A DNA stretch of 50,447 bases from contig MHDZ01000078.1 in NCBI GenBank assembly GCA_001805055.1, forward strand, positions 1-50,447. Direction: 5' to 3'. This stretch comes from Nitrospirae bacterium GWC2_57_13 (lineage in GTDB: Bacteria; Nitrospirota; UBA9217). Below the pieces are notes generated by a model. The model had not been told where the DNA came from. It saw nothing but the letters and a program-made list of their open reading frames with translations, and ran no database searches. This document shows positions 36,726-38,701 of the stretch, piece by piece (positions within the stretch are counted from its first letter, which is position 1; every line of letters begins with the position of its first letter). A program made the position numbers and the translations under genes.

Positions 36726-37013
36726 CGAACTGTGCCGCCCGCGAGTCTGTGCGAACAGGCAGGCAACGGTTTCCTCACCCGCTAACACGTCCTGCTTGAG
36801 TTTGCATTTTTTGCCGCGAGGATAATCATGCCCATTCTACCATATCCCCCCCTTAGCGAAGTTCGATATACGGCAACCAACAAGGGTGCGACTGCCTTGC
36901 ATGCGGTCATTCCGGCATGTTGTGGCAGCCGCAGACTTTGGCCTGTGCCTGTGCACGTCTTTCGCGATCTTTCGTTCCTCATTATTTAGTCGTAGACGAC
37001 TTTTCACGGCTTT

Positions 37014-37042
37014 TTGACAGGGCACAGTCTCTCATCTAGACT
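37014..37042 (+). promoter_or_regulatory. Possible promoter of the cytochrome gene
   Basis: TTGACA (37014-37019), 17-bp spacer, TAGACT (37037-37042). It would give a leader of about 180 nt. Confidence 0.55.
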
Positions 37043-37113
37043 GATAGTAAAGGCTCCACTTGTTCCTGATCCACCGTTTCCAGATACTTGTTCAAAAGTT
37101 TCGATTCTCTCAA

Positions 37114-37134
37114 CACATTCAGATGCTGAATGTG
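37114..37134 (+). promoter_or_regulatory. 21-bp palindrome in the cytochrome leader
   Basis: CACATTCAG (37114-37122), ATG, CTGAATGTG (37126-37134): perfect arms around 3 nt, followed by a GGCCC/GGGCC stem at 37147-37165. It may be an operator or a leader hairpin. Confidence 0.6.
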
Positions 37135-37226
37135 CTCATGATACCCGGCCCATTCACTAAGGGCCGCTGAGATCGTGCTGCAGGAAGGGGAGACCTGTCT
37201 GGTCCGCAAGGAAAGGAGGATATGTC

Positions 37227-38396
37227 ATGAAACGGTTCATCTGGATCTGCGCGCTGCTGCTCGCAACAGCGCCGCTCACGGTTTATGGTGAGTTTGCCAC
37301 GCTCGACGAACTCGCCAAGGCCTACAGCGTGGACACGTGCAGGACCTGCCACGCCAAGGTGCACACCGAGTGGACGTCGTCGTACCACTCGCAGTCTGTG
37401 GTCCATTCCCTGGGAGGCATACGGAACTTCATTGTTGTGGGCCTTGGCCAGGAGTGGAAGAAGCCCGTGAACAGGGACAACCTCATGCGCTGCATGGCCT
37501 GCCATGCGCCGCAGTTGGCCGAAGCTTCCGAAGGCCTTGCCACGCAGGTCGCTGACCTGATCATCGCCGCTGTGGACGAAAAGGACGGAAAGAAAAAGGA
37601 TGCGGCCAAAAAGGAGATCGCCAAACTGAACGTCAACTGCATTGTCTGCCACAACACCAAGATCATCCTCGAAAAGAACCTCAAGGGCGACCCGAAGCCC
37701 AACGTGTACTACGGTCCGACCGGCAAATCGTCGCCGGCTCACCGCTCGGCAAAATCTAAAGAGATTCAGACGGCCCTGTTCTGCGGCCAGTGCCACGGCA
37801 TCTACACGCCGCCGGATGGAGATATTATCCAGTGCAACACGCTCTACGGCAGCTACCAGGAGGCCTACCGCGGGAACGGCGGGGCCGAAACGTGCCAGGA
37901 CTGCCACATGCTCGCCAAGAACCGCGGCCACAAGTTCCCGGGCGCTTATGAAGTGGAGATCGTGAAAGAAGGCGTGGACCTCGATGTGCAGGCTGCAGCG
38001 ATCAAACTTACGCCGGGCAAGTGGATCCCCACGGCTATCGTGACCGTCAGCCTCACGAACAAGGCCGGCCATCGCATTCCCGATGGCTGACTGTGGTCCG
38101 CCAAGCTGGTCCTGGAAGTGACCGCCAAAACGGATACGGGAAAGACGATCGCTATGGGCAGGAAAGAATACTGGGAGCTGGGCGTTGACATCGACGGCGA
38201 CCATCGCATGGGTGCATGGCAGATCAAAGAGGTCGTGGACCTGACCCTGCCGCCCCGCAAGACCACGAAGGAACGGTTCGTCACTGAGCTGGGTGAAGGC
38301 GTGAAGAGCGCCGACGTGGAAGTAAAGGTTACCTATTATCCTTCGGCAAAGCACGAACTGGTCATCCACAAAGAAGCGAAGAAGCTGACCTTCTGA
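37227..38396 (+). CDS. Pentaheme c-type cytochrome with in-frame UGA (candidate selenoprotein)
   Basis: An exported multiheme cytochrome. Read through the UGA at 38088-38090 it has 389 residues (287, Sec, 101). A signal peptide ends near residue 21. Five CxxCH sites begin at C38 (CRTCH), C89 (CMACH), C138 (CIVCH), C186 (CGQCH) and C223 (CQDCH). The UGA falls in AGHRIPDG-U-LWSAKLVLEV, and the same frame stays open to a TAA-free end at 38396, so this is a stop-codon event, not a frameshift. A SECIS-like hairpin follows (38093-38125). It resembles a group I recall as the ExtKL-type multiheme selenoprotein of Geobacter, unconfirmed. GGAGG precedes the ATG. If UGA is a plain stop, a 287-residue cytochrome results. 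Confidence 0.8.
38093..38125 (+). promoter_or_regulatory. SECIS-like hairpin after the UGA codon
   Basis: GTGGTC (38093-38098) pairs with GACCGC (38120-38125), and CCA (38101-38103) with TGG (38113-38115), leaving a 9-nt apical loop containing GGU (38108-38110). The loop GGU begins 17 nt after the UGA, a spacing like that in bacterial SECIS elements. The stem has internal loops, so it is suggestive only. Confidence 0.5.
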
Positions 38397-38420
38397 GCGG
38401 CAATCGCAAGAGGATGTGAA

Positions 38421-38455
38421 CTGACAGCCGGGCCACGCAAGGGCCCGGCTGTCAG
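38421..38455 (+). terminator. Terminator-type hairpin after the cytochrome
   Basis: CTGACAGCCGGGCC and GGCCCGGCTGTCAG form a 14-bp perfect stem around 7 nt. It lies 25 nt past the cytochrome stop. No T-tract follows. Confidence 0.7.
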
Positions 38456-38701
38456 TATAGTCGCAAAAACAAGGAGGCAGGCATGCTTCCAAGCCTTTCA
38501 GAATGCGCGTTAGTATCGTTTTTTGCTTTGCCTGAGGGATTGCACTGGACGTGACTTTTGCACGAGTCCCCGGCTGATCGTGCTCACGTGTTTATTGATG
38601 TCGCTCTAAAAGGCTTTCCTGCAGGTCTGCCGCCTTTTCGCGCACGTTTTTTTCAACGATGGGGTTTTTTCTTGTGGTTATGCGCCCTGACGGAGAGGGG
38701 C

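Follow-up and report, generated by a model that had tools for sequence, protein, structure and literature searches.

ExtKL is listed among the known prokaryotic selenoprotein families (PMC13188914), and appears under the name 'cytochrome c family protein' in the corresponding list of PMC9312934. In Geobacter sulfurreducens, extK and extL (GSU2937-GSU2936) are probably one gene interrupted by a selenocysteine (Sec) codon (PMC5877670, PMC6148476), and proposals link the Geobacter protein to selenite and Fe(III) metabolism (PMC5877670). A 'Multiheme cytochrome c selenoprotein (MccSep)' has been deposited, together with a U325A mutant, in PDB entries 9WT8, 9WT9, 9WTA, 9WTB and 9WTC. For cable bacteria, a 2025 paper (PMC11976967) describes small pentaheme cytochromes (sPHC) that are structurally homologous to ExtKL and have, in one strain, a two-gene structure; the word selenocysteine does not occur in its main text.

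We analyzed a window of 50,447 nucleotides from Nitrospirae bacterium GWC2_57_13. One of its genes adds to this selenoprotein family, which is already catalogued and has a solved structure; the new sequence falls in a separate clade and is, though little studied, not an unusual member. The surprise for a specialist is small. The locus is a clear-cut example of UGA recoding, confirmed by comparison, and it reveals a separate clade of stand-alone ExtKL-type selenocytochromes in Nitrospirota and cable-bacteria relatives. Our analyses also provide a precise core of the SECIS element, and demonstrate exchange between Sec and Cys among members of the ExtKL family.

The gene and its reading frame

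The frame that starts at ATG 37227 meets a TGA at 38088-38090 (residue 288) and then stays open for 101 more residues, up to the TGA at 38394-38396. This is the same open frame that the first-pass annotation of the window had described, and the five heme sites it had placed 5' of the internal TGA correspond to the five CxxCH that we counted there. In an alignment of 53 sequences, the five CxxCH, Cys203, His235 and Gly281-His282-x-x-Pro285-x-Gly287-Sec288 are invariant. The flanking genes are aconitase on the 5' side and an MCE/Mla-type transporter operon on the 3' side; since both are on the opposite strand, the cytochrome gene stands alone.

The read-through protein scores 398.4 bits against NCBIfam NF040886, 'multiheme c-type cytochrome (seleno)protein ExtKL' (equivalog cut-off, 250), and the part before the UGA alone scores 305.7 bits. 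Two further ExtKL traits, the five CxxCH and a Sec/Cys at the conserved position of the C-terminal motif, are present. The extK/extL precedent that the first-pass annotation had named is correct according to PMC6148476 and PMC5877670, and the window gene falls under the same ExtKL model.

Table 1. Features of the ExtKL-family locus (positions of the window)
Feature	Position	Strand	Basis or remark
Sigma-70-like promoter match TTGACA-17-TAGACT, upstream	37014..37042	+	consensus match only, weak evidence
Purine-rich ribosome-binding site, AAGGAGGAT (including AAGGAGG), just 5' of the ATG	37213..37221	+	direct reading
Gene of the predicted ExtKL-family pentaheme c-type cytochrome selenoprotein	37227..38396	+	389 aa + stop; NF040886
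Predicted N-terminal export signal, about residues 1-21		+	read from sequence
Heme site 1, CRTCH, residues 38-42	37338..37352	+	invariant, 53-sequence alignment
Heme site 2, CMACH, residues 89-93	37491..37505	+	invariant, 53-sequence alignment
Heme site 3, CIVCH, residues 138-142	37638..37652	+	invariant, 53-sequence alignment
Heme site 4, CGQCH, residues 186-190	37782..37796	+	invariant, 53-sequence alignment
Cys203 codon	37833..37835	+	sole invariant Cys beyond the heme sites and position 288
Heme site 5, CQDCH, residues 223-227	37893..37907	+	invariant, 53-sequence alignment
Motif GHxxPxG-U, residues 281-288, last codon predicted Sec	38067..38090	+	invariant in alignment
UGA, predicted selenocysteine codon, residue 288	38088..38090	+	homologue alignment; matches Sec325 of MccSep (PDB 9WT8)
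Coding region after the UGA, residues 289-389, C-terminal beta-strand region, + stop	38091..38396	+	purifying selection, predicted model
Predicted bacterial SECIS core, 17 to 34 nt after the UGA	38107..38124	+	synonymous constraint, conserved pairing, PMC13188914 constraints

Residue 288 and the coding region after the UGA

A search of the genome collection returned 80 homologous loci. Residue 288 was counted in 58 readable sequences, comprising 56 of these loci, the window gene and its paralogue on contig C98; the count excludes L080 (frame broken), L081 (a fragment with UGA) and L039 (masked at residue 288). The codon is UGA in 52 of the 58 sequences and a Cys codon in the remaining six, and no other residue occurs. 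The GHxxPxG-[U/C] motif is general among the homologues, with one exception, at the Pro (L076). The first-pass annotation had proposed that the UGA encodes Sec and that homologues should carry Cys or U at this residue rather than unrelated ones. This expectation was borne out in all 58 sequences, and the proposal is supported by the Sec/Cys-only residue as well as by the constrained SECIS and the sel genes described below.

In a maximum-likelihood tree, the Cys forms occupy two separate places (L070/L072 and L046/L047/L049/L066), and Sec and Cys have therefore interchanged at least twice. A third clade, consisting of L061, L062, L064, L082, L046, L047, L049 and L066, includes both Sec and Cys members with a motif that is mostly GHxxPHG-[U/C]. 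This mixed clade is well suited to studying how Sec and Cys replace each other in a cytochrome.

The window protein is 60-77% identical to homologues both 5' and 3' of the UGA, so the frame is far from chance. Against the closest relative, L024, dN/dS is 0.16/1.10 (about 0.15) after the UGA and 0.25/1.06 before it, and third codon positions hold most of the differences in all pairs compared. By these alignments, the codons after the UGA evolve as protein, under purifying selection. The AlphaFold model has a mean pLDDT of 90.5, with values of 74-98 (most >87) for the 10-residue blocks after the UGA, and predicts that residues 289-389 are mostly beta strands that continue the strands before it.

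The SECIS element, the recoding machinery and the reading of the UGA

Among the UGA forms, synonymous codon identity reaches 0.84-1.00 at codons +6 to +11, where 0.24-0.50 is expected; it is moderately raised at codon +4 and near expectation at most other codons from -16 to +16. The suppression of synonymous changes at codons +6 to +11 therefore marks a conserved SECIS there. Its stem pairs 38107-38112 with 38118 and 38120-38124, with a bulged U38119, and encloses the apical segment U-GGA-A (38113-38117, 23 to 27 nt after the UGA). In alignment A1, where this stem joins columns 20-25 to columns 31-37, 96% of cells are paired, more than in slid controls, and two of the pairs display changes on both sides (G-C to A-U; C-G to U-A or G-C). 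Much of the pairing is lost in the Cys homologues.

The hairpin is included in the minimum free energy (MFE) fold of the window sequence, the stability of which is ordinary (z = 0.13; MFE -10.3 for 45 nt including flanks). Given that single-sequence folding alone could not support the element, we established it by comparison instead. The published model of bacterial SECIS elements specifies an apical loop of 3-9 nt, a stem of 4-16 bp, an MFE <= -7.5 and a G in the first two loop positions, at 16-37 nt from the UGA (PMC13188914). The present hairpin, whose stem has 5-6 bp and whose loop, UGGAA, begins 23 nt past the UGA, agrees with this model. An Rfam scan of 37000-38600 returned no SECIS family, only sub-threshold chance matches to miRNAs.

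The first-pass annotation was right about a hairpin downstream of the UGA, but had placed GGU in its apical loop. The GGU at 38108-38110 sits in the 5' arm of the stem, and the apical segment is U-GGA-A. A SECIS of the E. coli fdhF kind, in which the apical loop holds GGU, is an improbable description of this element: a CAGG[CUGGU]CCUG hairpin can be drawn in some relatives, but the GGU-loop stem pairs in 62% of cells (32% in the other register), as opposed to 96% for the GGUC/GACC stem. The GGU-loop models also have little or no covariation beyond shuffles, and the 5' half that such a stem needs is mostly without synonymous constraint. Because of their 62% and 32% pairing, both GGU-in-loop stem models were rejected and the original placement of GGU was corrected.

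Directly 5' of the UGA, codon -1 (38085-38087) is GGC in 42 of the 52 UGA forms, with a codon identity of 0.67 where 0.30 is expected. This bias suggests that the 5' context influences how the UGA is decoded.

The genome (3.32 Mb in 105 contigs, 95.7% complete) possesses selA, selB, selC and selD, the genes that the first-pass annotation had named as the check on its proposal. On contig C33, selA (599 bits), selB (367 bits; cut-off, 242) and the tRNA-Sec gene selC (66 bits by Rfam, and also called by ARAGORN, with anticodon TCA) lie close together, and selD (364 bits) is found on contig C76 (L017, G000:C76:25022-25939). The selD gene has one in-frame TGA, consistent with SelD being a selenoprotein, as it is known to be in other organisms.

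At the level of sequence, we demonstrate the equivalence of UGA and Cys at residue 288, a constrained SECIS, the presence of the recoding machinery and selection on the coding region after the UGA. Almost certainly, the UGA would be recoded by way of SelB and the SECIS to yield one 389-residue, presumably exported, ExtKL-family pentaheme cytochrome with Sec288. SelB bound to the hairpin, which starts about 16-17 nt past the UGA, would deliver Sec-tRNA(Sec) to the UGA, and the product would be the 389-residue protein with Sec288 in place of a truncated protein of 287 residues. The 101 residues after Sec would then complete the beta-strand domain found at the C-terminus alongside the five-heme domain.

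The main alternative raised at first reading was a natural nonsense mutation or a sequencing error; in either case, or with an assembly error, an otherwise ordinary cytochrome gene would be split. Single-base errors can occur in a draft assembly of 105 contigs, but 52 sequences from several phyla share the UGA at this codon, which is therefore not a read error, and Cys, in the six others, is the sole alternative. The alignment thus rejects this explanation, the probability of which is negligible; the erosion in the Cys forms of an RNA element that is conserved in the UGA forms, and the same UGA in the second ExtKL copy of this genome, likewise argue against it. Only marginally more credible, and still very improbable, is the view that the UGA is a true stop with ExtK and ExtL as separate proteins, or that it is decoded as Trp or some other amino acid through readthrough or an altered genetic code. 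The early annotation of G. sulfurreducens did split extK and extL (PMC6148476), but the homologues without UGA have Cys, never Trp, in single open frames. The purifying selection on the region after the UGA, the strands that run on from those before it in one confident model, and the non-standard residue at this site in the solved homologue, with a mutant named U325A, also speak against this interpretation and for Sec at residue 288.

The protein is most likely exported and periplasmic, and its five hemes would relay electrons. Sec288 stands six residues from the invariant His282, and may be the reactive group, either as a heme ligand or as a redox selenolate or selenenylsulfide adjacent to a heme. 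The invariant Cys203 is a candidate for its partner.

Relationship to described ExtKL-type cytochromes

In the maximum-likelihood tree, the window gene falls in a 22-row clade of Nitrospirota and Desulfobulbaceae, apart from the canonical-type ExtKL. The same genome has a second ExtKL gene (L020, G000:C98:34121-35371), which scores 586 bits, carries one TGA with its own SECIS and belongs to the canonical-type clade. A ketoacyl synthase gene lies upstream of this paralogue, and the stretch read contains no recognisable ext cluster genes. High-scoring ExtKL genes with one TGA (520-586 bits) are common in related genomes of the same family, and G004 and G005 have genes whose scores are similar to that of the window gene (about 391-398 bits). 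No extHIJ/MNOPQS-type neighbours were found around the window locus. Among the 22 clade loci, with per-locus maps for three of them, nothing recurs but the gene itself; L025 alone shares the downstream Mla/FGGY-kinase genes.

The clade with the motif GHRIPDGULWSxK may have a function of its own, as a second selenoprotein of ExtKL type alongside the canonical ExtKL of the same cell; its Sec288 would then be the catalytic or heme-adjacent redox group, possibly paired with Cys203. We advance this proposal tentatively, as it is somewhat more likely to be wrong than right. The pair of ExtKL paralogues in one genome makes the role of Sec in a multiheme cytochrome testable. Moreover, the locus serves as a warning that automatic gene callers truncate or split ExtKL-type genes.

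The window protein and ExtKL of G. sulfurreducens, which has five hemes, one predicted Sec and a gene once split at the in-frame UGA, both belong to NF040886. The window gene lies in a clade separate from the canonical-type ExtKL, in a tree built without the Geobacter sequence itself, and the motifs differ accordingly (GHRIPDGULWSxK in the window clade, GHxIPDGUPTPNR in the canonical type). Unlike Geobacter ExtKL, the window gene is not accompanied by the extHIJKLMNOPQS cluster; this cluster is a trait of Geobacteraceae and does not define NF040886.

MccSep serves as the experimental point of reference. It matches the window protein over its full length in a profile comparison (E = 2e-148), and its residue 325, X in the wild type (9WT8) and A in the mutant (9WT9), aligns exactly with residue 288. 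The presence of the Sec column in these entries means that the family is already established as a selenoprotein family at the level of deposited structures; our literature search found no paper on MccSep. In contrast to the window protein, MccSep has the canonical-clade motif IPDGxPTPNRLVLSV. It is absent from the fold matches listed for the predicted model (structure library up to April 2026), among which PDB 5ZE8, a pentaheme cytochrome c552 from Thermochromatium tepidum, ranks first (TM 0.62, E = 1e-14). The sequence match to 5ZE8 is weak (17% identity), and includes the His of a GHxxPxG-like motif; in the profile alignment, Ala occupies the position of residue 288, neither Sec nor Cys.

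Finally, the ExtKL homologues of cable bacteria also lack the extHIJKLMNOPQS cluster (PMC11976967). With respect to the sPHC of these organisms, the homologue L043 (6001-7179) of the cable bacterium Ca. Electrothrix aarhusensis shares the clade of the window gene and carries the UGA.
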